A stretch of DNA of 64,000 bases. It comes from Hyphomicrobium zavarzinii ATCC 27496 (GTDB lineage: Bacteria; Pseudomonadota; Alphaproteobacteria; Rhizobiales; Hyphomicrobiaceae). The position numbers and the translations under genes were made by a program. The notes under the pieces were generated by a model. The model was not told the origin of the DNA. It ran no database searches and was given only the letters and a program-made list of their open reading frames with translations. The stretch is from the NCBI RefSeq assembly GCF_000383415.1, contig NZ_KB911256.1, positions 372,001-436,000 on the forward strand, written 5' to 3'. This document shows, in pieces, positions 39,684 to 53,401 of the stretch (its first letter is position 1; each line of letters begins with the position of its first letter).

Positions 39684-40073
39684 ATGACGAGAGCACTTCC
39701 TGTCTTTGCCGCCCTTGCCATTACTCTTGGTGCAACATCTGCGCTCGCCCAATCCTCGGGCGGAAGTCCGGCCGATCCCAGCACCACCATGAACAAGCAG
39801 CCCGGCCCGAGCGCCACGACGCCGTCCGATCCGGCCGCTGGCTCGAAGCCTTCCGCGCGCATGCCGACCGCTCCGGCAGGCACGGGTTCAGGCAGCTCCG
39901 CGAGCGAGGGCGCAAGCTCGGGCGGTTCGGGCTACGAGACGCCTGCAGGCATTCCGGCCGATCCGAATTCTGTCGAGAACCGTCAGCCGGGTCCGGGCGC
40001 GAGCAAGCCGACCGACCCGGCCGCGGGATCGGATCCGGCAGCTCGCGTGCCGACCGACGGATCGCGCGACTAA
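39684..40073 (+). CDS. Small exported Pro/Gly/Ser-rich repeat protein, probable stress protein
   Basis: A 129-residue protein with a signal peptide (about 1-22, cleavage near SALAQS). The mature chain contains two similar units, MNKQPGPSATTPSDPAAGSK and VENRQPGPGASKPTDPAAGS, separated by a Gly/Ser stretch (SEGASSGGSG). It looks disordered and is likely periplasmic or surface. ATG at 39684 is preferred over 39678 because AAAGGA then sits at the right distance. It resembles the exported protein at 38653 in composition and motifs. Function is unknown. Confidence 0.72.
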   Translation: MTRALPVFAALAITLGATSALAQSSGGSPADPSTTMNKQPGPSATTPSDPAAGSKPSARMPTAPAGTGSGSSASEGASSGGSGYETPAGIPADPNSVENRQPGPGASKPTDPAAGSDPAARVPTDGSRD

Positions 40074-40109
40074 GCGCAGTCACCGAATTGTCGACGCGGG
40101 GAAGTCGGC

Positions 40110-40140
40110 CCCCCGGCGCCCGAAGGCGCCGGGGGTTTTT
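40110..40140 (+). terminator. Intrinsic terminator
   Basis: An 11-bp perfect stem (CCCCCGGCGCC 40110-40120, GGCGCCGGGGG 40125-40135) with a CGAA loop and five T residues. It closes the stress island. Confidence 0.93.
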
Positions 40141-40275
40141 GCGCCCATTCACGCAAGATTTCGGTAGCCCCTTTGCTTGACTCGCCGGAACGGCCTACTC
40201 AAGATGATGGCAAACGGTTTCTTGTTGTCTCGTGACCTTCTTGTCTTGGCTCCAACGCGGTGTTGACCCAGCTTG

Positions 40276-41481
40276 ATGTGGTGGGTTCGCATTTCTCAAG
40301 CAGCCGGAGAGCGCGGCGCGCCCAAGCCCGGATTTGCCTCGCGCGCGGCGTGGGTCTCACTCGTGCTCGCGCTATCGGTCACGCAGGCCGTCGCGGCCGA
40401 ATGGACAGCCGGCAAGGCCGCTCAAGCCGATACGCTCGTCAAACAGTTCCTGGCGCGACTGGACGCGACACGCGGCGCGCTACCCAAGGTCTCGTTCGCG
40501 CTCGCGATCGGCACCGAGCGCGCGCTCGGGATGGCGAAAGGCTACGGTGAGAGCGCCCCTGGCGTGGCGGCGACGGAGCGCACGGTTTTTCACGTCGGCT
40601 CCCTTGCGAAGCAATTCACGGCTTCAGCTGTGCTCGATCTCATCGGCCGCGATGCGACGCTGCGCGACGGAACGGCCGTCACCCTCGATCTCGCGCTCGC
40701 GCGCGTCTTCAAGGGTGTGGAGCACTGGCCGGGACAGGATGCGGCGTCGAATACGCAACCCGTCACGCTCCGCACCCTGCTCACCATGACGTCGAACCTT
40801 CCGAACTTCACGCGCCTGCCGCCGGCCACCACCAATCCGTGGGGGCGTATCGGCGCGCCCGAATTGCTGTCGGAGCTGAAGAAGCTCCGGCCATCCGGAT
40901 GGCCGAACACATTCGAATATTCGAACACCAGTTACTTCCTGCTGGCCGAGACAATCGAGGAAGCTCTGTTGCCGGGAGAGGCCATGCCGCACTCCCATCA
41001 CGCCTATCTACGGCAGACGATCTTTCCGCGCGCCCATCTTCGCGAGACGGGATTCATCGGGGACTACCCGGCCGGCGCCGTCGTGGCACCCCCGATATAC
41101 AGGCGCCGCCCGGTGTTCGATCAGCCGGACTGGCTCAAGGGCAGCGCCGACGTCGCGAGTTCCGCAGGAGACCTCTATGCCTGGAACGCCGCTTTGATGG
41201 GCGGCCGCATCCTGCCCGTCGAGCTCGTCGATCTGATGGTCTCGGACGGGGCCCGCGTGACGCCCGATCTCTATTACGGCATGGGGTGGTTCGTGGAGCA
41301 CCGCGCGGACTACGATCTCTTCACCCACTCGGGTCTCGTGCCGGGCTATACGGCCTTGAACATGATCGCGGCGGGCGAGGGACGCCGCGCTTGGACGTCC
41401 GTCACGCTCCTCGTCAATACAGACGTGCCGGAAGGCATGGATACGCTCGCAGAGGATCTGCTGCGTCTCGCCCGCGAGTGA
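40276..41481 (+). CDS. Serine hydrolase of the beta-lactamase/class C (AmpC-like) fold
   Basis: An exported 401-residue serine hydrolase. The catalytic Ser and Lys are in the SxxK motif HVGSLAKQFTAS (about residue 110), the Tyr motif is FEYSNTSYF (YxN, about 215), and the third motif is THSGLVPGY (HSG in place of KTG, about 352). These features are shared by class C beta-lactamases, esterases and D-aminopeptidases, so the substrate is not settled and resistance should not be assumed. A hydrophobic stretch at about 26-40 (WVSLVLALSVTQAVAA) is the likely signal peptide. Its N-terminus is unusually long, so the true start may be later. Confidence 0.8.
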   Translation: MWWVRISQAAGERGAPKPGFASRAAWVSLVLALSVTQAVAAEWTAGKAAQADTLVKQFLARLDATRGALPKVSFALAIGTERALGMAKGYGESAPGVAATERTVFHVGSLAKQFTASAVLDLIGRDATLRDGTAVTLDLALARVFKGVEHWPGQDAASNTQPVTLRTLLTMTSNLPNFTRLPPATTNPWGRIGAPELLSELKKLRPSGWPNTFEYSNTSYFLLAETIEEALLPGEAMPHSHHAYLRQTIFPRAHLRETGFIGDYPAGAVVAPPIYRRRPVFDQPDWLKGSADVASSAGDLYAWNAALMGGRILPVELVDLMVSDGARVTPDLYYGMGWFVEHRADYDLFTHSGLVPGYTALNMIAAGEGRRAWTSVTLLVNTDVPEGMDTLAEDLLRLARE

Positions 41482-41499
41482 GCGGCTTGCCGTTCGCTG

Positions 41500-41605
41500 G
41501 AGCATTTTCAGACGAAGTGCAGGCCGGTTCGTCGCAAGACAATACGACAATCAGAAATCTAGAGCGTATTGCGATCCGAGCCTGTCGGATCGCAATACGC
41601 TCTAG
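41500..41605. repeat. Intergenic repeat element ending in a perfect 21-bp inverted repeat
   Basis: A run starting GGAGCATTTTCAGACGAAGT leads to a long hairpin. The left arm 41559-41579 (CTAGAGCGTATTGCGATCCG and one more base) and the right arm 41585-41605 are exact reverse complements around a GCCTG loop. The right arm includes the stop codon of the SoxYZ-like gene. The general layout resembles interspersed intergenic repeats I know from Rhizobiales. It lies between convergent genes and may also act as a bidirectional terminator. Confidence 0.7.
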
Positions 41606-42444
41606 GAACCCCGCGCGTCCGAGCGCAGAGAGAACGATGCGCCGTCCGTATCCTTGGCATTCACCTCGATGAGCTCGTCGGCGCTGCTTCCGCCGTAGCT
41701 CACGCGGATATTCGGGTTCTCCGAGATCGAGATGCCGCCTTCCATGCGGAACAGAACCTGCCCGGCGCTCTTCACCTCAAGCGTGTTGATGAAGCGCGCG
41801 GGCACGTAGCCGCGCGTATCGGGATCGAGTTGCAGGCCGGTGAAGTTGGGATGGCGGATCATCACCTGCGCCTCGCGGAACGCGTCCCCGCGCGCGGGCT
41901 CGGTCTTCGCCTTGATGTCGATCTTCCCGAGGCCGGCGAGGGCCGCCTCGATGTCCTTCGAGGGCGTTGCGGAGCATCCGCCCGCGCCGGAGACGAACTT
42001 CGCGGACATGTGAAGTCGTCCGTCCGCGGTTTCGAGCACCGCTCTCACCTTGGAGAAGGAGTCGAGCCGGATGCGCGTTGCGAGTTGCCGCTCGCCGATA
42101 TCGGGACCGTCGCGGAAGCCCTCACCGAAGCGGAAGGCGGCGGCGACCGGCGCAGGGTTCCGGTCGATCAGCAGCGTAAGCGCGACCGCGTTCCGGGCCA
42201 CGGTGCCGGGAATGCGGATGCTGATAGGCACGAGTGCCGCGTCCTCTGCTCGCTCCGGCGCATAGAGCGTGACCAGACCGTCGTTTTCCGCAATCTCCCG
42301 CTTTCCGAACACCTCCTCCCGGAGGCCCGGCCACGGATCCTCTTCGGCGGCGTGAAGGAAACCCGGCCAAAGCCCGGCCGCGAGCGGCGGAAGAGCGAGG
42401 GCGGAAATGATCAGGGAACGGCGGGAAATGGAGCGGCTAACCAT
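41602..42444 (-). CDS. Quinoprotein dehydrogenase-associated SoxYZ-like carrier
   Basis: A 280-residue exported protein that fuses a SoxY-like and a SoxZ-like domain, the architecture of the carrier family found beside PQQ dehydrogenases. The N-terminus has a twin-arginine-like motif (SRRSLI, about residue 7-12) and a hydrophobic stretch, fitting Tat export as for SoxY. The SoxY part (about 35-158) ends in GAGGCSA with Cys157 in the place of the SoxY carrier cysteine (GGCGG). The SoxZ-like part (about 175-275) has MIRHPNFTGLQLDPDTRGYVPARFI. No other sox genes are near, so a role in thiosulfate oxidation is unlikely. It is divergent from the FGE-fold gene. Confidence 0.85.
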   Translation of the reverse strand: MVSRSISRRSLIISALALPPLAAGLWPGFLHAAEEDPWPGLREEVFGKREIAENDGLVTLYAPERAEDAALVPISIRIPGTVARNAVALTLLIDRNPAPVAAAFRFGEGFRDGPDIGERQLATRIRLDSFSKVRAVLETADGRLHMSAKFVSGAGGCSATPSKDIEAALAGLGKIDIKAKTEPARGDAFREAQVMIRHPNFTGLQLDPDTRGYVPARFINTLEVKSAGQVLFRMEGGISISENPNIRVSYGGSSADELIEVNAKDTDGASFSLRSDARGS

Positions 42445-42577
42445 GGTCAGGCCCTTTCCGTTTTAGGCATTCCGGAGCGTGTGCGCTCAGCGGCGCCGGC
42501 GAATCTGCTGGCTGGCCCTTGCGCGATGCGACAATTTATAACATAGGAGATGTTACCTTGTTACACTGAAAGTTTCC
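42445..42577. promoter_or_regulatory. Divergent promoter region of the PQQ-oxidation island
   Basis: 133 bases separate the SoxYZ-like gene (-) and the FGE-fold gene (+). An AT-rich block includes TTATAACAT (42536-42544). The same nine bases occur upstream of the XoxJ-like gene at 48476-48484. A direct repeat GTTAC-CTT-GTTAC follows at 42552-42564. These are candidate regulator or -10 sites, supported only by resemblance. Confidence 0.45.
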
Positions 42578-43708
42578 ATGCAGGCATCGCCCGATCTTTC
42601 CCCGCTCGCCCGGGTACTTACAGTCATGCTCGCGGTTCTGGCCGGAACGGCGGAGCCATCTTTCGCGGCCCCGGACGCCGAAGCCGTGGCGACTGCGGCC
42701 AGCCCACGGGCCTTGCAGGAAATTTTAGATCGCGATCCCGGTACGAAGGAGGCCGTCGCGGCGCGCGCCGCCGCGCTGAGCCTGGTTCTGATCGATGTTC
42801 GGATCGGAACCGGCAAGGCCGAGCGCAGCGAGACGCGGGTTGCCGGAGGCGGCAAACCGTTTGCCGATTGCGATGCCCCTGCCGTCTGCCCGCCGATGCT
42901 GGTCGTTCCGCCCTCTCCGCCGGACTTCGCCATCGGCTCGCCTCCGGACGAGGCAGACCGCTCGGACGACGAGACGCTGACGCCGGTAACCATCCGCGCC
43001 TTCGCCATGGCGGCGCATCCTGTCACCGTGGCTGAATACAAGGCCTGCGTGGCGGCAGGCGGATGCAAGCCGCCCGAATGGCTCGAGCCGGGCGGCCAGC
43101 ACAACATCGAGACCGGCTCCAGCCGCTACTATCGTAACCTGGGCGAGGCGCTGACCGGCCCGGGCCAACCCATCGTGGGCGTGAGCCACACCGATGCCAC
43201 GGACTACGCCAAGTGGCTGAGCAAGCTGACCGGACATGCGTATCGCCTGCCTTCGGAAGCGGAGTGGGAAATGGCAGCCCGCGCGGGCACGAAAACGGCT
43301 TTCTGGTGGGGCGACTCGCTCCCGGCGGACGGCGTCGCGCGCGCGGCATGCGTGGGCTGCGGAAGCGAATGGGACAGCAAGTCGCCTGCGCCCGCAGACG
43401 CCTTCCCTGCCAATCCCTGGGGTTTGCACAACGTGCATGGCAACGTGTGGGAATGGACGGCGGACCTCTATTGCGAGGACTATGCGTCCGGCCCGAAGGA
43501 CGGCTCTCCCCGCGTGACCGATGATTGCGCCCCACAGGGAGACCGCCCCGCGGCGCGCGGCGTCTACAGTCTGCGCGGCGGCTCGGCGTTCTATCCGGTG
43601 AAGGCGATGCGGTCAGCCATGCGCGTGCGCAACATTCCCGGCTTCCGCAATTTCAGCGTGGGCTTTCGCGTCGCGCGCGATCTCCCGCCTGGCAGCGGAG
43701 CACCATGA
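42578..43708 (+). CDS. Exported FGE-fold (SUMF1-type) protein, catalytic cysteines absent
   Basis: A 376-residue protein with an N-terminal hydrophobic signal (about 10-30) and a formylglycine-generating-enzyme fold from about 110: RAFAMAAHPVTVAEYKAC, RLPSEAEWEMAARAGT, NPWGLHNVHGNVWEWTADLY, and the terminal YSLRGGSAF leading to VGFRVAR. In true FGE the RGGS region is followed by two copper-binding cysteines. Here the matching positions read FYPVKAMRSAMRVRN with no Cys, so formylglycine synthesis is unlikely. It opens an apparent operon with a histidine kinase (21-base gap) and may be a periplasmic sensor partner or binding protein; that role is inference. Confidence 0.8.
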   Translation: MQASPDLSPLARVLTVMLAVLAGTAEPSFAAPDAEAVATAASPRALQEILDRDPGTKEAVAARAAALSLVLIDVRIGTGKAERSETRVAGGGKPFADCDAPAVCPPMLVVPPSPPDFAIGSPPDEADRSDDETLTPVTIRAFAMAAHPVTVAEYKACVAAGGCKPPEWLEPGGQHNIETGSSRYYRNLGEALTGPGQPIVGVSHTDATDYAKWLSKLTGHAYRLPSEAEWEMAARAGTKTAFWWGDSLPADGVARAACVGCGSEWDSKSPAPADAFPANPWGLHNVHGNVWEWTADLYCEDYASGPKDGSPRVTDDCAPQGDRPAARGVYSLRGGSAFYPVKAMRSAMRVRNIPGFRNFSVGFRVARDLPPGSGAP

Positions 43709-43729
43709 GAGCCGGAGCGGGATAGAGCC

Positions 43730-45148
43730 ATGCCGATGCGCGAATACATCGATCTCAATGGGTCTTTGGGACCCAAGAAGTCGGAGTCGCTCTCCGCGAC
43801 CATCATCCGCAATATCTCCATCGTTCTCATTCTTACGCTCGTGATGAGCGGCGCGATCACCTACTGGCAGGCCGCGAACAAGGTGGAGACGGAGGTCGGT
43901 GCCGCGCTCTCGATTGCCGAGAAGACCGTGCGCAAGGTCGTCCAGGAGATTGCTCACGACGATGAGCCGCGCTTGCAACTCGTCCGTCTCGTCCGCGTGT
44001 TCGACGGCAACCGTCACGTTCGCGCGACCTTCATCGAGCCCGAGCCGATCGGCGCACGCATATCGAGCTTCGTCGCGCCGGCCGAGGAATTGCCGGATTG
44101 GTTCTACGCGCTGATGGCAGGACCGCCCCAGGTCATCCGCATCGCCCTGCCGGAAGGTCTCACCAACTACGGCGCGTTCGAGCTCGAAACCGAGCAGCGC
44201 GGAGAGGTGGGAGAGGTCTGGGACGACTTCCTGTTGAAGCTCGCCATCCTGACATTCTTCTGCGCGCTGGTTTCCACGCTCGTCTACTTCACCGTCGGGC
44301 GCGCCCTGGAGCCTCTGCCGAAGCTCTCCGCCGCGTTCGAGCGGCTCGGCGGAGGCGACTATGGCGTGCGCGTCGCGGAAAGCGGACCGACCGAGCTCGC
44401 CAAGCTCTGCTCCGGTTTCAACGAGATGGCCGATCGTCTTGGCCAGATGGAGAGGCGCAACCAGCAGCTCAACGAGCAGCTCGCGACCGTGCAGGAGGAG
44501 GAGCGCGCGGACCTGGCCCGCGACCTTCATGACGAGGTGAGCCCGTTCCTGTTCTCCGTCGACGTCGACGCCTCGACCATTCGCCAGATGGCGGAGGCGC
44601 CCGAGACGGACGCGCTGATCGCCCGCACGGACGCCATACGCGAAGCGGTGGCGCATATGAAGAAGCATGTGAAGTCGATCCTCGGCCGCCTCCGCCCCAC
44701 GGTGCATCTGGAGCTGGGTCTCGCCAACGCCATCGAAACGCTCGTGGCCTCCTGGCAGCTCCGCAATCCCGATGTGGTCTTCAACGTCGACGTGACGGAT
44801 CGCGGATGCGGCCAGAAGCTCGACGCGGTGATCCACGGCATCGTTCGGGAAGCCATCAGCAACGCCTTCAAGCACTCGAAGCCGACCGAGATCGATGTGC
44901 AGGTGACGCGCAACGAGGACGACGACGTCCGTGTTTTGGTCCGTGACGACGGAGGCGGATTGAAGCCGTCTAGCCTGTCGAGCGGCTTCGGGCTGATCGC
45001 CATGCGCGAGCGGGTGACCGCTCTCGGTGGGACGATTGATATTGGCAACAGGGAAGATCGAGCCGGTGTTAAGGTGGACGTCCGGCTCCCGATCCGGGAA
45101 AGCTATGCTGCATTCGACGGATCCGCCGATCTGGGGAGTGATGCATGA
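43730..45148 (+). CDS. NarX-type sensor histidine kinase
   Basis: A 472-residue membrane kinase. One membrane helix at about 25-45, a periplasmic sensor segment (about 46-168), a second helix (about 169-190), a HAMP domain (about 191-245), a HisKA_3 dimerisation domain with His267 in LARDLHDEVSP, and an HATPase domain (REAISNAFKHSKPTEIDV for the N box, VRDDGGGLKPSS and GFGLIAMRERV for the G boxes). The stop overlaps the start of the response regulator by four bases (ATGA), so they form a cognate pair. Its position upstream of the methanol dehydrogenase suggests that it senses an alcohol-oxidation cue, but the signal is unknown. Confidence 0.92.
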   Translation: MPMREYIDLNGSLGPKKSESLSATIIRNISIVLILTLVMSGAITYWQAANKVETEVGAALSIAEKTVRKVVQEIAHDDEPRLQLVRLVRVFDGNRHVRATFIEPEPIGARISSFVAPAEELPDWFYALMAGPPQVIRIALPEGLTNYGAFELETEQRGEVGEVWDDFLLKLAILTFFCALVSTLVYFTVGRALEPLPKLSAAFERLGGGDYGVRVAESGPTELAKLCSGFNEMADRLGQMERRNQQLNEQLATVQEEERADLARDLHDEVSPFLFSVDVDASTIRQMAEAPETDALIARTDAIREAVAHMKKHVKSILGRLRPTVHLELGLANAIETLVASWQLRNPDVVFNVDVTDRGCGQKLDAVIHGIVREAISNAFKHSKPTEIDVQVTRNEDDDVRVLVRDDGGGLKPSSLSSGFGLIAMRERVTALGGTIDIGNREDRAGVKVDVRLPIRESYAAFDGSADLGSDA

Positions 45149-45762
45149 AGGTCCTCGTCGTTGATGATCACGCGGTGGTGCGCCAGGGCGTGCAACGCCT
45201 CCTCTCCGCCATGCCGAACGTGGTTGTGCTGGAAGCGGCGACGGCCCACGAGGCGCTGGCGACGGCGCGCAAGGAAAACCCGGATGTCGTGGTCCTCGAC
45301 ATCAATCTCGAAGGCGCGAGCGGCCTCGAATTGCTGCGCCGTCTTCGGATCGAAAGCCCGGCCGTGCGCGTCTTGATGTTCTCGATGCATGCCGAGCCGA
45401 TCTACGCGAACCGGGCTCTCAAGGCAGGCGCCTACGGATATGTTTGCAAGAGCGCGGGTGCCGAGGAGCTGACGACCGCGGTGATGCGCGTTGCCGACGG
45501 CGAGCGCTACCTCGACAGCACCATGGCGGGCGAGCTGGTAATGAGCAGCGTGCGCGCCGAGGACCCTTTGCGCAAGCTCACCAACCGCGAGATCGAGATC
45601 CTGCGTATGCTGGGCGAAGGCAAGAGCCTGCAAGGCATCGCCGATGCGATCGGCATCGCCTACAAAACGGTTGCCAACTCGTGCGGGCGCATCAAGGAAA
45701 AGCTCGATTTACCGCGCACATCCGACCTCATTCGCTTTTCCATCGAAAACCGCCGCAACTGA
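45145..45762 (+). CDS. LuxR/NarL-type response regulator, first copy
   Basis: A 205-residue two-domain regulator. Receiver domain with the phosphoacceptor Asp52 in VVVLDINLEG and acidic pair VVDDH; C-terminal GerE/LuxR helix-turn-helix with KLTNREIEILRMLGEGKSLQ and IAYKTVANSCGRIKEKL. It resembles ExaE/ErbR/AgmR-type regulators of PQQ-dependent alcohol oxidation, but the resemblance is at the family level. A second protein of exactly the same length and very similar sequence lies at 51416, on the other side of the dehydrogenase. Confidence 0.93.
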   Translation: MKVLVVDDHAVVRQGVQRLLSAMPNVVVLEAATAHEALATARKENPDVVVLDINLEGASGLELLRRLRIESPAVRVLMFSMHAEPIYANRALKAGAYGYVCKSAGAEELTTAVMRVADGERYLDSTMAGELVMSSVRAEDPLRKLTNREIEILRMLGEGKSLQGIADAIGIAYKTVANSCGRIKEKLDLPRTSDLIRFSIENRRN

Positions 45763-46347
45763 TCCGATCGATCCGAAGCGCGATATCTCCGTTTGAACGC
45801 AGCACTGCGAAGTGAAGAGATTTTGGCGCTACGCGAAGCCGGTCTCCTTCTCCGCTTCCGCCGCTTCGGAACAGGACTATTGTTTTCAAGGAAAATGTAT
45901 CCCGGGAAATCGTCCTACAATTTGGCACGGAATTACGGGCTTATTCGGCGAAATCGAACCGGCGATCACGACTGTGTGATTGGGAAACTTGGCAAACCAC
46001 ATCGGGAGCTAATCCCATAGTGCAACTTATTGGCGTTGCCTATGGTTCGCGGGCTTGCAGGATGGCTGGGGCGCCGAGACAACCGCTCTCCTCCTTGGGT
46101 TCTCCCGGCGCCCAGCTTTTTCCAGCATAGCAAAGCCATCTGCCTCCATCGGAGGTCAGCACTCCACGATCGAGATTTTTTGAATGCGCAAGACGATCAC
46201 GGCCGGGAAGGCCGGAGATGCCGTTTTGCGTAATGCGGGATCTCGTTTTTTCGGCAAAGCCGGATTTGCGAGAGGACGTGGGTTTTCGGAAGGGCATGGT
46301 TTGGAATTGCCTGCGGAAACTCGCCTGGTACTAGGAGAGGAAGCAGA
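45763..46347. promoter_or_regulatory. 585-base leader and promoter region of xoxF
   Basis: No convincing gene was found here. The left part is AT-rich, including ACAATTT (45917-45923). At 46065-46121 a GC-rich inverted repeat (GCTGGGGCGCCG and the imperfect partner CGGCGCCCAGC, a loop of roughly 30 bases) is followed by five T residues, which looks like an intrinsic terminator or attenuator about 225 bases before xoxF. A ribosome site GGAGAGGAAG lies just before the start codon. Confidence 0.5.
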
Positions 46348-48237
46348 ATGAGACAGAGGTTAGCCTTTGTAGCTGGCGGTGTTTTGGCCGCCCTGCTCGG
46401 CATGAGTGGCCCCGTATTGGCCAATGCCGAGATCGAGAAGAACACCAAGAACGAGAACCTGTGGCCCGCCCCGGGCCGCGACAACCAGCTCACGCGTCAC
46501 TCGACGTTGAAGGACATCAACACCGAGAACGTAAAGAAGCTTCAGTTCGCCTGGTCGCAGTCGACCGGCGCTCTGCGCGGCCACGAAGGCCAGCCGGTCG
46601 TCGTCGAGCACAACGGCAAGCCGATGATGTACTTCTCGTCGGGCTGCCCGAACATGGCCCAGTGCAACATCCTGCAGGCACTCGACCTCAGCGATCCGGA
46701 CAATCCGGTTCAGGTCTGGAACTACGTCAAGAAGACCGACCGCGATGAGTCGGCCGTTCCGCGCGCCTGCTGCGACACCGTTCACCGCGGCGTGAACTAT
46801 GCCGCCGGCAAGGTGATCTACCACACGCTCGACGGCTTCGTGATCGCGCTCGACGCCACCACCGGCGCCGAGAAGTGGGTCGTGAAGCACGCTTATCCTG
46901 AGCACGGCGAGACCATCACGGGTCCCACTCTCGTGGCCGAGAACCTCGTGATCGCAGGCTTCGGCGGCGACGAGTTCGCAGCCCGCGGACGCCTCACCGC
47001 CTACAATATCGAGACCGGCGAAGTGGTCTGGAAGTGCCACTCGACGGGCTCTGACAAGGATGTCTGCCTCACGCCGGACACCAACAAGGCCAACCCGCAC
47101 TACGGCACGGCCGGCACCGACATCGGCATCACGTCGTATCCCTCGACCAACGGCGGCGAGTGGAAAATCGGCGGCGGCGCTTACTGGGCCTGGGGCAGCT
47201 ATGACCCCGAGCTGAAGCTCGTCTACTGGTCCACCGGCAACCCCGGTCACTGGAGCCCCAGCTATCGCTGCGGCGACAAGACCCACGACGAGTGCAACAC
47301 CGGCAAGTGGGACAACAAGTGGTCGATGACCATTTTCGCCCGCAAGGTGGACACCGGCGAGGTCGTCTGGGCCTACCAGATGACGCCCTTCGACCAGTGG
47401 GACTATGACGGCGTGAACGAGAACATTCTCGTCAACGACCTCGATGTCGATGGCAAGAAGCACAAGGCTCTCGTCCACTTCGACCGCAACGGCTTCGCCT
47501 ACGTCCTCGATCGCGTCGACGGCACGCTGCTGCGCGCCAACAAGTTCGTGACCGTGGATTGGGCCGAGAAGGTCGATCTCAAGACCGGCCGTCCGATCAA
47601 GGTCTACGAGCACTCGCCCTTCGAGGTCGGCCGCAACGTCGCTGCCTGCCCCTCGGCCATGGGCGGCAAGGACCAGCAGCCTTGCTCTGTCGACCCCAAG
47701 GAGCCCAACAAGTTCTACTGCCCCACCAACAACTGGTGCATGGAGGACGAGCCGCAGGAGCGCACGCACACGCAGCAGGGCACGGTCTACGTGTTCGCCA
47801 ACGTGTACATGTATCCTGAGAAGCCGGGCATCTCTGGCAAGATCAAGAAGTTCGACGTCGTGACGGGCAAGGCTGACTGGGAGATTCCGGATCCCTATCC
47901 GAACTGGTCGGGCACCATGGTCACCGACGGCGGCCTGATGTTCTACGGCTCGAAGAGCGGCCACTTCCGCGCAGTCGATCGCAAGACCGGCAAGGTGCTG
48001 TGGCAGAAGAAGCTGGGCTCCGGCATCATCGGCAACCCGATCACCTACAAGATCAAGGGCAAGCAGTACGTCTCGATCTTCTCGGGTCTCGGCGGCTGGA
48101 TCGGCATCCCCGTCACCGCTGGTCTCGACATGAACGACAAGTTCGGCGCGATCGGTGCGACGGCAATGGCGAAGGCCACCGGCCTCGACAAGATCCCGCA
48201 GGGCGGCGAGCTCTACACGTTCAGCCTTGGCGAGTGA
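46348..48237 (+). CDS. xoxF: Lanthanide-type PQQ-dependent methanol dehydrogenase
   Basis: Periplasmic quinoprotein alcohol dehydrogenase that oxidises methanol, passing electrons from PQQ to a cytochrome c. The 629-residue preprotein has a signal peptide (about 1-25) and an eight-bladed propeller with repeated tryptophan docking motifs. The PQQ-site vicinal disulfide is CC at 141-142 (RACCDTVHRG). Likely metal and active-site residues are Glu209 (GGDEFAARG), Asn298 (STGNPGHW) and Asp352. The residue two positions on is Asp354 (WDYDGVNE); calcium MxaF enzymes carry Ala there, and Asp marks the lanthanide-binding XoxF type. I did not assign a XoxF clade. No XoxG cytochrome follows. Confidence 0.9.
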   Translation: MRQRLAFVAGGVLAALLGMSGPVLANAEIEKNTKNENLWPAPGRDNQLTRHSTLKDINTENVKKLQFAWSQSTGALRGHEGQPVVVEHNGKPMMYFSSGCPNMAQCNILQALDLSDPDNPVQVWNYVKKTDRDESAVPRACCDTVHRGVNYAAGKVIYHTLDGFVIALDATTGAEKWVVKHAYPEHGETITGPTLVAENLVIAGFGGDEFAARGRLTAYNIETGEVVWKCHSTGSDKDVCLTPDTNKANPHYGTAGTDIGITSYPSTNGGEWKIGGGAYWAWGSYDPELKLVYWSTGNPGHWSPSYRCGDKTHDECNTGKWDNKWSMTIFARKVDTGEVVWAYQMTPFDQWDYDGVNENILVNDLDVDGKKHKALVHFDRNGFAYVLDRVDGTLLRANKFVTVDWAEKVDLKTGRPIKVYEHSPFEVGRNVAACPSAMGGKDQQPCSVDPKEPNKFYCPTNNWCMEDEPQERTHTQQGTVYVFANVYMYPEKPGISGKIKKFDVVTGKADWEIPDPYPNWSGTMVTDGGLMFYGSKSGHFRAVDRKTGKVLWQKKLGSGIIGNPITYKIKGKQYVSIFSGLGGWIGIPVTAGLDMNDKFGAIGATAMAKATGLDKIPQGGELYTFSLGE

Positions 48238-48258
48238 TCGGCAAGGAGCATGAAACGG

Positions 48259-48288
48259 ACGCCCGGTGCCTCACGGCACTGGGCGTTT
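48259..48288 (+). terminator. Hairpin terminator after xoxF
   Basis: A 12-bp stem (ACGCCCGGTGCC 48259-48270 with GGCACTGGGCGT 48275-48286, one G-T wobble) with a TCAC loop lies 21 bases after the stop. Only three T residues follow, so it may reduce rather than fully stop read-through. Confidence 0.65.
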
Positions 48289-48475
48289 GCCGTTGGGGCC
48301 GCTCTTTCGGTGAGGCGGAGCGGCTTTTGGAAGAAGCCGCGACAGTGGCAGCCGGTCCGGCCGGATTCGCTCGAAGCAGGATCGGGCTAGGCCCCTGGTT
48401 TGGCGCGCGAAACTGTGATTGCTCCGCGTAGAGATCCGGACTTGCCGCGCCGCGCTCTGATCATTAGAAGCAACA

Positions 48476-48484
48476 TTATAACAT
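48476..48484 (+). promoter_or_regulatory. Candidate shared element upstream of the XoxJ-like gene
   Basis: TTATAACAT, preceded by CAACA, lies 13 bases before the GTG start, in a 260-base gap after xoxF. The same nine bases occur in the divergent promoter at 42536-42544. It could be a -10 box or a regulator site; two instances are too few to decide. Confidence 0.35.
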
Positions 48485-48497
48485 TAATAGGTGTGGT

Positions 48498-50318
48498 GTG
48501 AGGAAGCTGTCGCACACGCTCGCGTTGGGTGCCGTTCTTGCCGGTCTCTGTGGCCCGGCCATCGCGGCGGAGAACCTGCGCTCGTTCACGAAGAACAAGT
48601 CGTTCGACGATTTGACCGCGGCCGAGCACACGGCAACGCGTCAGGAGGCGCGTCACCGCAAGCTCGACGTGCTGCGTGTCTGCGCCGATCCGGGCAACAT
48701 GCCGCTCTCCTCCTCGAAGGAGGACGGCTATCAGAACAAGATCGCGAAGATCATCGCCGAGGATCTCGGCGGCCACGCGAGCTTCTTCTGGCGCCCCTAT
48801 CACGAGCGCGGCCTTACCCGCGAGACGTTCCAGAACGACGAGTGCGACATCCTGATGGATATGCCGACGGCGCTTCAGGAGCTGCTCACCACTGAGCCGA
48901 TCTATCGAACGACCTACATCTTTGCCCACCGGGAGGACCGTAAGCTCGACATCAAGAGCCTCGACGATCCTGCGCTCAAGGATCTGCGCATCGGTGTGTT
49001 CCAGCATTCCGGCTTGCGCGAGGCGCTCGAGCGCCGCGGGCTCAAGAACCTCGACCTCCACGTCATCGCCTACGACGCGGATCTGAAGCCCGAGCATCAG
49101 CCGTGGCAGCAGGTGCAGAAGGTCATCGACGGTGAATTGGACGTGGCCGGTGTGTGGGGGCCGTTCGCGGGGTGGCTCAAGACGCAGAAGAATGCGCCGA
49201 TCGTCATTCAGCCGGTGAACCTCTGGGAGAACGAGGTGCCGATGGAGTTCGATCTCGCCATCGGCATGCAGCGCAACCAGGTCATGTTGAAGTACATGAT
49301 CGACTGGGCGCTCACCCGGAAGAAGGATGAGATCGCCGCCGTCCTCAAGGACTACGGCGTCCCCCTCGTCAAATGCTCGAAGTGCGCGGTGGATGGCGAT
49401 CTGCCGGCCCACGGCTCCTACTACGAGCGCCTCCGCAACGTCTCGCAGGACCGCTTCCTGAAGGAGGCACCCAAGATCGAGCATACGGACAAGGCGGCCG
49501 AGCACCAGATCGTGACGGAAGCGCGCCTCGAAGCTTGGCTGAAGGAAGGCGCCGATCTCGATCAGGAGCTGGTCAACGCGATCATCGGCAACGATGCGGA
49601 GCGCGTGCGCTTCCTCATCAAGAAGGGCGCGGATGTGAACAAGCGCGATTCCGGCGGCTTTACCCCGCTGGACACCGCTGCCCGCACCCGCGGCACCACG
49701 CTGATCGGCATTCTGGCGGAGGCGGGCGCCGATCCTAACGCGCCTGATGCCGATGGCTTCTTCCCGCTTCTGCACGCCATCAATCGCAATCATGTCCCTT
49801 CCATCGAGATGCTGGCCAAGAAGGGCGCGAACCTCGAGCTCAAGAACAAGCAGGGCATCACGCCGCTTTCCTGGGCACTAGGCGATGGCAAGTATTTTGC
49901 GGCGAAGGCCCTGATCGATCTCGGAGCGGATGTGAATGCCACCTCGGGGGTGGAGAACGTGACGCCGCTGATGGTGCTCGCGACCCAGCTTGCCGCCAAG
50001 ACGCGGTCCGGCAACCTCGCGCAAGGGCCGCAGCCGCTCGATCTCGCCCGTCTCCTCATCGAAAAGGGCGCGAACGTAAACGCATTGTCGAAGGACGGCG
50101 TCAACGCGCTCATGATCGCGGCGGGCCACAACAACGCGCCGATGATCGGTCTTCTCGCCGGTTCGGGAGCGGATCTCGGCGTGAAGTCAACCACGGGCCA
50201 GACTGCGCTCGATATCGCGACCAGCGCCGGTTTCGATGCCGCTGTCGGCGCTCTGCGCCTCGTGTCGCGGCCCGTGGGCGGCAAGGCCCACGATACGCCG
50301 CCCGCCCTGCCGAATTGA
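48498..50318 (+). CDS. XoxJ-like periplasmic binding protein fused to ankyrin repeats
   Basis: A 606-residue exported protein with two parts. After a signal peptide (about 1-24) comes the quinoprotein-associated substrate-binding fold (about 50-330): VLRVCADPGNMPLSSS, CDILMDMPT, RIGVFQHSG, KVIDGELDVAGVWGP, then a CxxC region LVKCSKCAVDGDLPAHGSY. Residues about 345-590 form roughly six to seven ankyrin repeats, such as VRFLIKKGADVNKRDSGGFTPLDTAART and ARLLIEKGANVNALSKDGVNALMIAA. XoxJ/MxaJ proteins normally end after the binding fold and are thought to help activate the dehydrogenase. The start codon is GTG. A likely operon with the beta-propeller gene (30-base gap). Confidence 0.85.
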   Translation: MRKLSHTLALGAVLAGLCGPAIAAENLRSFTKNKSFDDLTAAEHTATRQEARHRKLDVLRVCADPGNMPLSSSKEDGYQNKIAKIIAEDLGGHASFFWRPYHERGLTRETFQNDECDILMDMPTALQELLTTEPIYRTTYIFAHREDRKLDIKSLDDPALKDLRIGVFQHSGLREALERRGLKNLDLHVIAYDADLKPEHQPWQQVQKVIDGELDVAGVWGPFAGWLKTQKNAPIVIQPVNLWENEVPMEFDLAIGMQRNQVMLKYMIDWALTRKKDEIAAVLKDYGVPLVKCSKCAVDGDLPAHGSYYERLRNVSQDRFLKEAPKIEHTDKAAEHQIVTEARLEAWLKEGADLDQELVNAIIGNDAERVRFLIKKGADVNKRDSGGFTPLDTAARTRGTTLIGILAEAGADPNAPDADGFFPLLHAINRNHVPSIEMLAKKGANLELKNKQGITPLSWALGDGKYFAAKALIDLGADVNATSGVENVTPLMVLATQLAAKTRSGNLAQGPQPLDLARLLIEKGANVNALSKDGVNALMIAAGHNNAPMIGLLAGSGADLGVKSTTGQTALDIATSAGFDAAVGALRLVSRPVGGKAHDTPPALPN

Positions 50319-50347
50319 GAACGCGCCGCCACAACAGAAGGTTCGCA

Positions 50348-51328
50348 ATGGTGACCAGCAACAAGATCGTGACTGCCGCGCTCGCTCTGCCCTTTCTGCT
50401 CACGGCGGCGCCGAAAGAGGCCAGCGCGCTGACCATCTTCGTCACGAACGAGAAAGAGAACACGGTCACGGTGCTCGACGAGTCTCTGAAGATCGTGAAG
50501 ACCATCAAGACCGGCATGCGGCCGCGCGGCATCCGCATCACGCCGGACTTCAAGGAGGTGCTCGTCTGCATCGGAGACGACAACCGCCTCGACGTCATCG
50601 ATACCGAGACGCTGGAAATCACCCGCACCTTGAACTCGGGGCCTGATCCCGAGCTCCTCGATGTCTCGCCGGACGGCAAGCGGATCTACATCGCCAACGA
50701 GGACGAGGGCTACGTCACCATCATGGAGCGGGCCGACGGCAAGGTGCTGGCGGAGGTGATGATCGGTGTCGAGCCCGAGGGCATGGCCGTCTCGCCAGAC
50801 AACAAGATCACCGTCGCCACGTCCGAGCAGACCAGCATGGCGCACGTCATCGACAACGAGACGTTCGACGTGCTCCAGAACATCCTGGTCGATACCCGCC
50901 CGCGCGAGGCTCAGTTCACTGTGGACGGCCGCCATGTGTGGGTCTCGGCCGAGATCGGTGGCACCGTCTCCGTCATCGACGCCAAGACCTACAAGGTGGT
51001 GAAGAAGTTCGGCTTCACGATTCCGGGCGTCAATCCGGAGCTGATCCAGCCCGTGGGCATCGAGATGTCGAAGGATGGTAAACACGCCTTCGTCGCCCTC
51101 AGCCACGCCAATCGCGTCGCCGTGGTCGACACCGAGACCTACGAGATCAAGCAGTACGTTCTCGTGGGTCAGCGGCCCTGGCACATGGCCGTTCACCCGG
51201 ACGGCTCGCAGCTTTTCGTGGCCAACGGCCTCACCAACGACATGACGGTGATCGATACGGCCACCCTGAAGCCGCTCCGCTCCGTGCCTGTAGGGCGCCT
51301 TCCGTGGGGCATTGCCATTAAGCCATAG
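50348..51328 (+). CDS. PQQ-catabolism-associated YVTN beta-propeller protein
   Basis: A 326-residue exported protein with a signal peptide (about 1-27, cleavage near KEASAL) followed by seven-bladed YVTN-type repeats: LTIFVTNEKENTVTVLDE, YIANEDEGYVTIMERADG, HVWVSAEIGGTVSVIDAKT, HAFVALSHANRVAVVDTET and QLFVANGLTNDMTVIDTAT. It matches the propeller family that accompanies PQQ alcohol dehydrogenases; its biochemical role is not established. The ATG at 50348 follows AGAAGG. An in-frame TTG at 50315 overlaps the previous stop and would disrupt the signal peptide. Confidence 0.88.
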   Translation: MVTSNKIVTAALALPFLLTAAPKEASALTIFVTNEKENTVTVLDESLKIVKTIKTGMRPRGIRITPDFKEVLVCIGDDNRLDVIDTETLEITRTLNSGPDPELLDVSPDGKRIYIANEDEGYVTIMERADGKVLAEVMIGVEPEGMAVSPDNKITVATSEQTSMAHVIDNETFDVLQNILVDTRPREAQFTVDGRHVWVSAEIGGTVSVIDAKTYKVVKKFGFTIPGVNPELIQPVGIEMSKDGKHAFVALSHANRVAVVDTETYEIKQYVLVGQRPWHMAVHPDGSQLFVANGLTNDMTVIDTATLKPLRSVPVGRLPWGIAIKP

Positions 51329-51415
51329 TGCCGGGCGTATCGGGAAAGTGATATCGTTACAACTATATGAGGCGCGACGGGGGTGTTATCCTGCGTCGCG
51401 AGGAGACTTGAGCCG

Positions 51416-52033
51416 ATGAAAATTCTTGTGGTCGATGATCACGCGGTGGTGCGGGAGGGGATCCGTCGCCTGCTCGCGACGATTTCCGGAGCGGAGATCC
51501 ACGAAGCGGCGAATGCGCAAGACGCGATGAACCTCTCTCGAACGGTCAATCCCGACGTGGTGGTGCTCGACATCAATCTCGACGGATCGAGCGGGCTAGA
51601 GCTGCTTCGCCGTCTCAAGGCGGAGAATGTCGCGGCCCGCATCGTGATGTTCACCATGCACTCCGAGCCGAGCTACGCCATGCGTGCGCTCAAGGCAGGT
51701 GCGGCCGGCTATGTCAGCAAGAGCGCCGAAGCGGGCGAACTCGTCACGGCGGTGAAGAAGATTGCATCCGGCGATCGTTATCTCGACCGCTCCATGGCGA
51801 GCGAGCTGGTGTTCAGCTCCGCATTCACCGAGGATCCGCTGCACAAGCTGTCGAACCGTGAGGTCGAGATTCTGCGCCTGCTCGGCGAAGGCAAGAGCCT
51901 CGCGGAGATCGCGGCAACCTTCGGTATCGCCTACAAGACGGTGGCGAACTCGTGCAGCCGCCTCAAGGAGAAGCTCGGCGTTGAGCGCACCGCCGATCTC
52001 ATCCGCCTCAGCGTCGAGCGCCGCATCCGGTAA
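51416..52033 (+). CDS. LuxR/NarL-type response regulator, second copy
   Basis: A 205-residue regulator with the same layout as the one at 45145: Asp52 in VVVLDINLDG, and HTH with KLSNREVEILRLLGEGKSLA and IAYKTVANSCSRLKEKL. Both have identical length and share long near-identical stretches (VLVVDDHAVVR, SSGLELLRRL-type, KAGAAGYVSKSA), so they are paralogues. It lies 87 bases after the beta-propeller gene and has AGGAG at good distance from this ATG. It lacks its own kinase in the window and probably shares the kinase at 43730 or answers another. Confidence 0.92.
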   Translation: MKILVVDDHAVVREGIRRLLATISGAEIHEAANAQDAMNLSRTVNPDVVVLDINLDGSSGLELLRRLKAENVAARIVMFTMHSEPSYAMRALKAGAAGYVSKSAEAGELVTAVKKIASGDRYLDRSMASELVFSSAFTEDPLHKLSNREVEILRLLGEGKSLAEIAATFGIAYKTVANSCSRLKEKLGVERTADLIRLSVERRIR

Positions 52034-52048
52034 GCGGAGGCGGCTCCC

Positions 52049-53401
52049 TCAGCGCGCGAGCCGCTCGCGCGTCAGCGTCTTCGCAAGCTCCACCGCGGGC
52101 TGGTCGAACGGGTCGAGGTTCAGAAGCCGCCCCGCCAGGATGGTCTCGATCATGAAGTGCATGAGCAGCGCTCCGATCGCGCGCTCGTCGAGCTTCTGAA
52201 TATCGAACGTGCGAACCGGCCTGCCAGCCTGGGTCAGCGCCTCCGCGATGGCGTGCGACTGCGCATCCACCACGTCGCCGATCGTCTTGCCGCCGAGGAA
52301 GCTCTGCCCCGCGAGCTTGGCCATCTCCGCGTCGAGCAGAGCGCCTTCGCCTGCACTCGCGACCCGGACCACGGTCACCGCGATCTCGCGCGGACCGTCC
52401 ATGAAGAGCTGAAGCTGGCTGTGCTGGTCCAGCGGCCCGAGGGCCGGGATGGGCGACGTGCCCTCGCCGCCCTTGCCGAGGCTCTCCGCCCAAAGCTGCA
52501 CGTACCATTCAGAAAAGCGGCCGAGCCGGTCGTTGTAGGGCATCATGACGAGCGTGCGGATGCCGCGCTCTTTCGAGAGGCCCACCGCCGTCGCAGCGCC
52601 GATCGCCGGAGCGAAGGCTGCGGGGAAGGACGCCGAGACGAGGCTGTCGATCACCTCCTGCGCACCCGCGCGGATCTTGCGGGCATCGAGCCCGCGCGCC
52701 AGCGCCGGCAGCAGGCCGACGTTCGTCAGGCACGAGAAGCGCCCGCCGATACCGGTGTGATGCTCCAGCATGGGAATGCCGAGGCTGCCGAGCAGCGCGC
52801 GCAGGCCGTTGCTCTTGCCCGGCTTGTCCGGCTCCGTGATGCCGAGGAACATCTGAGGAATACGGCTTTCGAGGCCTGCGGCTTTCACTGCCGACAACGT
52901 CGCGAGAAGCTGCGCAATGGTTTCTGTCGTGCCGCCCGACTTCGACGTGACGACGAAACGCGTCTTGTCGAGTTCGAGCCGGGCGAGACCAGCCGACAGC
53001 GTCAGCGGATCGAGATTGTCGTAGAAGCGCGTACGCGGGCGTGCCTTGTCGCCAGTCGCGCAGCAGGAGACGCCGGGAAGCCCCCACCCGCCGAACTGGG
53101 CGAGCGTCTGGCCGCCAAGGCCAGAGCCGCCGGTGCCGAAGAACACGATCGTCTCCGCGCCTTCGGACAGCTTGGCGAGCGCTGCCTCCGCCGCATCGAG
53201 ATCGGCCGTCTCCTCTGAGATCTTGAGCAGCGGAAGACGCCCGCTCGCATGATCCGCCTTGAGATCGTGGAGCGCTGGCCCGAGCTTCTCGAGCCAGCTT
53301 CCAAGCTCGGCCTCGGACAATCCGTTCTCGCCGATGGCGCCAGAAAGGCACCCGGCAATTGACTGGCGATAGGAGGGGGAGGAGGAGCTGGGCTTTGTCA
53401 T
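52049..53401 (-). CDS. pgi: Glucose-6-phosphate isomerase
   Basis: Interconverts glucose 6-phosphate and fructose 6-phosphate. The 450-residue product fits the shorter alphaproteobacterial form. SIS-domain motifs are FGTGGSGLGGQTLAQFGG (about residue 88) and VVTSKSGGTTETIAQLL (about 150), with the later FSEWYVQLWAESLGKGGEG and GPLDQHSQLQLFMDGP. An ATG four codons upstream (53413) is possible. It converges with the second response regulator gene, with 15 bases between stops. Confidence 0.93.
   Translation of the reverse strand: MTKPSSSSPSYRQSIAGCLSGAIGENGLSEAELGSWLEKLGPALHDLKADHASGRLPLLKISEETADLDAAEAALAKLSEGAETIVFFGTGGSGLGGQTLAQFGGWGLPGVSCCATGDKARPRTRFYDNLDPLTLSAGLARLELDKTRFVVTSKSGGTTETIAQLLATLSAVKAAGLESRIPQMFLGITEPDKPGKSNGLRALLGSLGIPMLEHHTGIGGRFSCLTNVGLLPALARGLDARKIRAGAQEVIDSLVSASFPAAFAPAIGAATAVGLSKERGIRTLVMMPYNDRLGRFSEWYVQLWAESLGKGGEGTSPIPALGPLDQHSQLQLFMDGPREIAVTVVRVASAGEGALLDAEMAKLAGQSFLGGKTIGDVVDAQSHAIAEALTQAGRPVRTFDIQKLDERAIGALLMHFMIETILAGRLLNLDPFDQPAVELAKTLTRERLAR

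Follow-up and report, generated by a model that had tools for sequence, protein, structure and literature searches.

The stretch of DNA analysed here, hereafter the window, comprises 64,000 nucleotides of Hyphomicrobium zavarzinii ATCC 27496 (assembly GCF_000383415.1, contig NZ_KB911256.1, positions 372,001 to 436,000), and our subject is an island of eight genes at window positions 41602-52033, built around a pyrroloquinoline quinone (PQQ)-dependent methanol dehydrogenase (MDH) of the XoxF type. An earlier reading of the DNA, made from the letters alone (the sequence-only reading), had assigned eight gene families to these positions, and open reading frames (ORFs) and profile scores confirm each of them. 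The gene for a SoxYZ-like carrier lies on the minus strand, divergent from those for a protein with the fold of formylglycine-generating enzymes (FGE), a histidine kinase and a first response regulator (RR1). After a gap of 585 bp come xoxF, a gene for a XoxJ-ankyrin fusion, a propeller gene and a second response regulator gene (RR2).

41602..42444, minus strand: SoxYZ-like carrier, fused SoxY and SoxZ domains (TIGR04557, 237 bits)
42578..43708, plus strand: exported FGE-fold protein, PvdO-like (PF03781, 163 bits)
43730..45148, plus strand: membrane histidine kinase (HAMP, HisKA_3 and HATPase_c Pfam matches)
45145..45762, plus strand: response regulator RR1, receiver and LuxR/GerE helix-turn-helix domains (profile matches)
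45966..45986, plus strand: operator-like element TCACGACTGTGTGATTGGGAA, 382 bp before xoxF1a; same pattern before xoxF1b of a second island (see below)
46348..48237, plus strand: XoxF1-type PQQ methanol dehydrogenase, copy a (TIGR03075, 540 bits; best PDB match 7o6z)
48498..50318, plus strand: XoxJ1, with XoxJ/MxaJ domain, CXXC and ankyrin repeats (TIGR03871, 234 bits)
50315..51328, plus strand: YVTN beta-propeller, LutB-like (TIGR03866, 429 bits)
51383..52033, plus strand: second response regulator RR2, LuxR type (65% identical to RR1)

Judged from its sequence, the dehydrogenase (XoxF1a) is a member of the XoxF1 clade, an assignment that follows from its best structural match, the Asp352/Asp354 and vicinal cysteine pairs and the GGDE motif. 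The best match, 7o6z, is the XoxF1 of Methylacidimicrobium thermophilum (845 bits), against 545 bits for 4mae and 478 for 6dam, which we take to be XoxF2 and XoxF5 enzymes. The residue diagnostic of XoxF1, an Asp that immediately precedes the metal-coordinating Glu (Asp172-Glu173 of 7o6z; PMC8546591), is present in XoxF1a, whose GGDEF active-site loop aligns with the GGDEF of 7o6z. Our initial guess of XoxF4 membership, which came from Methylotenera relatives, was dropped because of the 7o6z score and this Asp. Among 113 aligned XoxF1 proteins, all 113 keep vicinal Cys141-Cys142 and the lanthanide-type Asp352/Asp354, the second of which lies two residues after the catalytic Asp. Extra cysteine pairs stand at 308/316 (113/113) and 230/240 (99/113), at places lacking Cys in the MxaF of the same genome and in the dehydrogenase of its classical xoxFGJ locus on contig C4, which we take to be of the XoxF5 type; the pairs 100/106 and 446/458 are patchy, occurring in 54 and 66 of the 113 rows. 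The M. thermophilum XoxF1 contains neodymium (PMC8546591), and the XoxF1 of Methylomirabilis (M. oxyfera) has been reported with calcium (PMC9291206). The genome also encodes an XoxF-like PQQ dehydrogenase paralogue (L122, C2:792534-794204, a 939-aa ORF) in which Ser replaces the catalytic Asp (WSYDG vs WDYDG), and which is possibly a non-catalytic or regulatory relic.

XoxF loci typically bring their own XoxG. In the window island no xoxG adjoins xoxF, and the sequence-only reading was right that the cytochrome is missing, since positions 30001-62000 of the window contain no XoxG1 match and no export-like CXXCH ORF shorter than 450 aa, and the island no cytochrome-like ORF. The propeller ORF opens at 50315, before the XoxJ-ankyrin ORF ends (stop at 50318), which leaves no room for a cytochrome or its remnant between them, and a decayed xoxG1 at that point was therefore rejected. 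Among the 80 named loci used, the best of 110 relatives, the recurrent XoxF1 neighbourhood is xoxF1-xoxJ1(ankyrin)-xoxG1-lutA-lutB, with lutA or a close propeller absent in many beta- and gammaproteobacterial loci. Exactly this set is kept in a sister island on contig C1 of the same genome, comprising xoxF1b (78% identical to xoxF1a), xoxJ1 with ankyrin, xoxG1, lutA and lutB. The xoxG1 product is a small one-haem protein with weak MoxG likeness (36.7 bits, below cut-off), beyond which lie a LutA-type binding protein (TIGR03863) and a propeller (TIGR03866). The window island is thus one of two paralogous XoxF1 islands, of which copy a is without xoxG1 and lutA.

This changes how the missing gene is to be understood. 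The sequence-only reading had proposed that exported proteins of unclear biochemistry take the place of the cytochrome. The XoxJ-ankyrin protein and the propeller also occur in xoxG1-bearing XoxF1 islands and are ordinary members of such islands, so that the window lacks just xoxG1 and lutA. The intact paralogous island with the usual gene set, whose xoxG1 is found in 23 of 23 genomes and which in the genus shares a private promoter element with copy a (both described below), likewise argues that the cytochrome has not been replaced by other proteins.

The pairing of the two islands extends across the family. XoxF1 is present in 26 of 103 family genomes. A scored copy without xoxG1 occurs in 23 of them, and all 23 also have a copy with xoxG1; in the other three (G003, G044 and G094) every scored copy has xoxG1, and G094 carries in addition a truncated, unscored XoxF1 locus. 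From the cytochrome-less copy lutA is also gone in 14 of the 23 and kept in nine. A whole-genome search for XoxG1 at E <1e-40, which largely re-finds the genes of the island scoring, matched 26/26 genomes with XoxF1 against 2/77 others (G030 and G082). In 13 of the 23, a distance of 5-12 kb separates the two xoxF1 genes, which in the genome of the window are on separate contigs. One genome (G060, loci L170 and L171) has complementary islands, its copy a encoding XoxJ, LutA and LutB without XoxG1 and its copy b XoxG1 without XoxJ. Outside the family, XoxG1 was found elsewhere in the genome in six of seven genomes with a cytochrome-less XoxF1, and among 64 non-duplicate named XoxF1 rows 52 have xoxG1, seven do not and five, at contig ends, are undecided. 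A tree of 113 XoxF1 proteins (77 with xoxG1, 30 without, 6 undecided) needs at least four changes between presence and absence. It places 22 of the 30 absences in one 23-row clade (SH-aLRT 99), whose other row is truncated and which spans genera; this tree was a quick build with SH-aLRT support only, has a long-branch warning near the root and had copy b of G057 dropped for length. Alphaproteobacteria-like XoxF1 islands also turn up under the names Enterovibrio coralii (L057, with ankyrin and propeller matches split) and Candidatus Binataceae (L094, a metagenome-assembled genome, MAG), which may reflect transfer, contamination or misbinning.

A second line of evidence lies upstream of the two dehydrogenase genes. 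The aligned regions before xoxF1a (seven genomes) and xoxF1b (eight genomes) of the genus share one common element, and the exact 21-bp pattern TCAC-N6-GTGA-N3-GGAA gives 10 matches in six of eight whole same-genus genomes, all of them before xoxF1a or xoxF1b; in the genome of the window it occurs twice, once before each. The reversed pattern gives no match in the eight genomes. Since the pattern was derived from these very promoters, their recovery is built in and the informative part is its absence from every other place in those genomes. With at most one mismatch it is found in 29 of 50 family xoxF1 upstream regions (19/26 with xoxG1 and 10/24 without), against 0/50 for the reversed pattern and 1/50 on the other strand, and in all fetched family sequence it gives 33 matches against two for the control. 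Seven other PQQ genes checked in this genome have no upstream match with fewer than three mismatches. Outside the family there is no enrichment: at most one mismatch was seen in 2 of 65 named-locus upstream regions, against one for the reversed control, and these two are Hyphomicrobium copies already counted, while one of the 65 rows (L095) is an artefact. From these sequences we infer that in this genus both islands are co-regulated via the putative element, by RR1, RR2 or another regulator.

Taken together, the co-occurrence of the two copies and the shared element make it fairly likely, in our judgement, that the electrons of XoxF1a pass to the XoxG1 of the sister island, co-expressed with XoxF1a. 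The sequence-only reading had named a xoxG or mxaG elsewhere, shown to serve this XoxF and with the accessory genes lacking phenotype or coexpression, as what would overturn it; a xoxG itself was found in the sister island, and its service to XoxF1a is the part drawn from co-occurrence and the shared element. In Methylocella silvestris, XoxF1, XoxJ1, XoxG1 and a neighbouring ATP-binding cassette (ABC) protein respond to lanthanum together (PMC9291206). Several points weigh on the other side. The co-occurrence also fits two enzymes that merely stay together, and in one MAG labelled Binataceae (G106, the source of L094) no XoxG1 match accompanies the cytochrome-less XoxF1 anywhere in the genome. 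Upstream of copy a in other genera the element has three or more mismatches in 13 of 17 cases and at most one in three, so that co-regulation would be limited to the genus and a few relatives. Deletion of xoxF1 in M. silvestris has almost no effect on growth, and XoxF1 goes down with lanthanum (PMC9291206), which leaves the substrate and metal of XoxF1a uncertain.

The remaining proteins of the island suggest how such an enzyme might be matured. XoxJ1 belongs to the XoxJ/MxaJ family, with a periplasmic binding-protein fold matching MxaJ/XoxJ at residues 58-291, followed by a CXXC (Cys293 and Cys296) and an ankyrin-repeat domain at about 340-590. The CXXC is invariant in 46 of 46 aligned sequences; a stricter text pattern demanding VPxV matched 45/49 family and 79/81 named sequences, and the alignment was used instead. 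XoxJ and ankyrin matches go together in 82 of 88 named XoxF1 rows (81 within one ORF) and in 49 of 51 family rows (each in one ORF), statements that hold for the named loci and family genomes, the Methylacidimicrobium and Methylomirabilis lineages lying outside this sample. A XoxJ match is absent despite a continuing contig at L079, at L082, in one G024 copy and in G060 copy b. The first two, from Methyloceanibacter, have an XoxF1 without XoxJ, XoxG1 or LutB match nearby (about 10 kb and about 5 kb downstream searched).

The propeller (429 bits against a TIGR03866 cut-off of 287), whose likely start codon is an internal ATG at 50348, is 53% identical to that of the lut-type cluster of the same genome, and lutB mutants of Methylorubrum extorquens grow slowly with lanthanum (PMC7391723). 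On this likeness and this published phenotype it is LutB-like and more likely involved in a metal step, lanthanide uptake, than in electron transfer, as the sequence-only reading had suggested.

SoxYZ-like carriers are already known to accompany quinoproteins, and the island bears out the earlier description of a module for PQQ-dependent alcohol oxidation that includes accessory families of quinoproteins and a dedicated two-component system. The carrier scores 237 bits against a TIGR04557 cut-off of 140 and, as read from its sequence, has a signal peptide with a twin-arginine-like stretch. The Cys157 singled out by the earlier reading lies within a GGCSA motif invariant in 13/13 aligned carriers. 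An AlphaFold model has two strand-rich domains, and residues 157-161, with a predicted local distance difference test score (pLDDT) below 50, are predicted to be mobile, which fits a swinging arm. A true thiosulfate-oxidising SoxYZ was rejected, as the true SoxY and SoxZ profiles score 57 and 54 bits, far under their cut-offs of 125 and 76. Five such carriers, that of the island included, score above cut-off in this genome, so that the type is not peculiar to this island; of the other four, one lies near XoxF5, where a SoxH-type hydrolase is also found, and one near an alcohol-dehydrogenase-type quinoprotein. The carriers are distributed over contigs C4, C1, C2 and C9 (two at C1:522056 and C2:11990), and the rhodanese family TIGR03865 occurs at two loci elsewhere in the genome, against five carriers. 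The roles proposed for SoxYZ-like proteins are forming disulfides, stabilising the cofactor or shielding PQQ from sulfur nucleophiles, and methanol growth of Hyphomicrobium denitrificans is inhibited by thiosulfate with auxiliary donors (PMC12997753).

The FGE-fold protein (163 bits to PF03781) is closest by sequence to PvdO among PDB entries (5hha, E 4e-30). True formylglycine-generating enzymes have two catalytic copper-binding Cys in a C-terminal motif. In the corresponding segment, RGGSAFYPVKAMRSAMRVRN, Cys is absent in 7/7 aligned orthologues, and true FGE activity was rejected because neither catalytic position carries Cys. The kinase has a periplasmic domain with a weak LapD_MoxY_N match (20 bits against a cut-off of 25), its ORF is overlapped by that of RR1 by 4 bp, and RR2 likely starts at an internal ATG (51416) according to its translation.

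On these grounds a scheme can be proposed. Both xoxF1 genes would be turned on through the shared element by a regulator, the likeliest candidates being RR1 and/or RR2 together with the neighbouring kinase. XoxF1a would be exported, and XoxJ1 would assist in its loading with PQQ and metal, perhaps with the CXXC and ankyrin parts adding an extra clamp or thiol step, while LutB, by homology, may help lanthanide delivery. The mobile Cys157 of the carrier might form or protect the vicinal disulfide of XoxF1a, or keep sulfur nucleophiles off PQQ. XoxF1a would then oxidise methanol or a short alcohol in the periplasm and hand its electrons to XoxG1 of island b, as co-occurrence and the shared element suggest. 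The FGE-fold protein may act in the periplasm to pass an input to the kinase, the weakest step of the scheme. A bolder extension, which we put forward as speculation and think rather doubtful, is that XoxJ1 is a two-domain maturase whose invariant CXXC, set between an MxaJ-like clamp and a cradle of ankyrin repeats, cooperates with the mobile carrier Cys in making and repairing the vicinal disulfide of a cysteine-rich XoxF1, and that Hyphomicrobiaceae have split the system into a two-island regulon in which one paralogue permanently borrows the cytochrome of its sister.

The island as a whole is maintained. Purifying selection acts on all eight genes, with median dN/dS (ratio of nonsynonymous to synonymous substitution rates) of 0.07-0.24 among same-genus genomes and 0.095 for XoxF; in gene order, orthologues came from 4, 4, 4, 5, 7, 7, 7 and 7 of seven genomes, the rest being absent or not picked up. 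Whether the same eight families recur in the same order, which the sequence-only reading had proposed as a check, has a divided answer. The complete order is present in three of the seven genus genomes with copy a (G000, G001 and G005), and in G004 it is consistent, though interrupted by a contig end; gene order differs in G002 and G007, and in G006 the fetched stretch has no carrier match. Several other genera have the genes for carrier, FGE-fold protein, kinase and regulator next to copy b or between the two xoxF1 copies. The closest named loci, among the best 80 of 110 relatives, belong to a Hyphomicrobiales MAG (97%) and to Hyphomicrobium (at most 96%). At the end of the SoxYZ-like gene, an inverted repeat of 20 pairs with a short T-rich tail (41559-41605) reads as a terminator. 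A terminator scan gave 12 terminator-like sites against a shuffle mean of 6.9, a promoter scan two promoter-like sites against 1.7, and no Rfam element reached its gathering threshold within 40000-53000.

The alternative closest in kind to sharing with the sister island is that XoxF1a is served by another cytochrome, namely XoxG5 of the xoxFGJ locus, an orphan XoxG5-like protein or MxaG. Cytochromes within a cell could be interchangeable, this genome contains genes for two of the TIGR03874 family and a candidate mxaFJGI-type locus, and XoxG5 was matched in six of the seven genus genomes carrying XoxF1a. We nevertheless hold this to be unlikely, since XoxG1, the sole one of these cytochromes surveyed family-wide, is present in all 26 family genomes with XoxF1, and since the promoter element ties copy a to copy b and has no close match before the seven other PQQ genes. 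The orphan gene (L116, C6:179784-180395, TIGR03874 at 211 bits) has no dehydrogenase match in the 18 kb fetched around it and occurs in six of eight genus genomes; it was rejected as an obligatory partner because two of the seven XoxF1a-bearing genus genomes, G001 and G005, both rated 100% complete, lack it. That copy a is simply a redundant duplicate shedding genes would explain why it is without xoxG1, and in 14 of 23 genomes without lutA, but its low dN/dS and the persistence across genera of the 23-row clade (22 rows scored without xoxG1) make ordinary decay barely credible.

Two further readings would give XoxF1a another task altogether. It could be mainly a sensory or regulatory dehydrogenase with little electron flow that modulates MDH gene expression, a role for which the flanking kinase, RR1 and RR2 and the purifying selection across the whole island can be cited, along with the near absence of a growth phenotype on xoxF1 deletion in M. 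silvestris and the loss there of the lanthanum switch of mxaF in a xoxF5 deletion, for which the authors allow a suppressor (PMC9291206). This seems to us very unlikely, because the active-site residues that we checked in XoxF1a are intact and because the kinase-regulator pair does not go with the cytochrome-less copy in particular, being found in several other genera next to copy b or in between the two copies. It could also form a sulfur module in which XoxF1a and the carrier oxidise or couple thiols. An XoxF homologue of Advenella, thiol dehydrotransferase, has reportedly been implicated in tetrathionate oxidation, XoxF of Starkeya novella rose in proteome rank with methanol or thiosulfate (PMC3797975), and the carrier Cys is invariant and predicted to be mobile. 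Against this, TIGR04557 carriers accompany several PQQ dehydrogenases, as the five above cut-off in this genome illustrate, that of the island falls far short of true SoxY and SoxZ, and the MDH active-site residues are conserved, which renders a sulfur module more improbable still. Electron transfer from XoxF1a to the XoxG1 of the sister island is thus the reading we prefer.

XoxF-type dehydrogenases bear on the biology of rare earths and on how methanol is used. Neither the XoxF1 cluster nor any of the protein families discussed here is new, whereas the pairing of an island that lacks the cytochrome with one that has it, the promoter element and the CXXC-ankyrin architecture of XoxJ1 appear newer. 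We did not find them described in the literature searched, which is weak evidence as most subscription journals were outside its scope. A cytochrome-less XoxF1 clade with a sister xoxG1 in 23 of 23 genomes makes partner sharing testable. The XoxJ1 fusion, which almost every XoxF1 island examined possesses, offers a handle on insertion of the metal, PQQ and the vicinal disulfide, and the promoter pattern, which in eight same-genus genomes is confined to xoxF1 genes, gives a short way to a regulator linked to MDH.

Comparison with known systems places the window island among several relatives. The classical xoxFGJ locus of the same genome resembles it in its dehydrogenase and XoxJ-type binding protein, but the dehydrogenase is 42-45% identical, a TIGR03874 cytochrome adjoins it and its XoxJ has neither CXXC nor ankyrin. 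The Pseudomonas putida ped cluster likewise combines PQQ dehydrogenases with a SoxYZ-like carrier (PP_2677), the MxaJ-like PedG, kinases and LuxR regulators, and its propeller gene pedA2, called PQQ-dependent catabolism-associated, is the counterpart of the window propeller. It differs in having cytochrome c550 (PedF), a SoxH-like hydrolase, a rhodanese-domain protein and ExaF-related dehydrogenases, and the text describing it contains neither "ankyrin" nor "formylglycine" (PMC12997753). LutA and LutB homologues are also found in M. extorquens, where they belong to the lut lanthanide transport cluster and not to an island of the XoxF1 clade, whereas the window LutB adjoins xoxF1 (PMC7391723). 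The M. silvestris BL2 xoxF1 cluster (Msil_3149-3146 and neighbours) shares xoxF1, xoxJ1 and a LutB-like gene with the window; the YVTN propeller and ABC binding protein adjoining its xoxF1 have been called LutB and LutA homologues, and the key to the MDH cluster figure includes a sensor kinase and regulators (PMC9291206). In another M. silvestris strain (L080) we found xoxF1-xoxJ1ankyrin-xoxG1-lutA-lutB with a kinase and a regulator nearby. The Methylocella cluster has the xoxG1 and lutA that copy a lacks, and the window copy has in turn the SoxYZ-like/FGE-fold pair and a second regulator.

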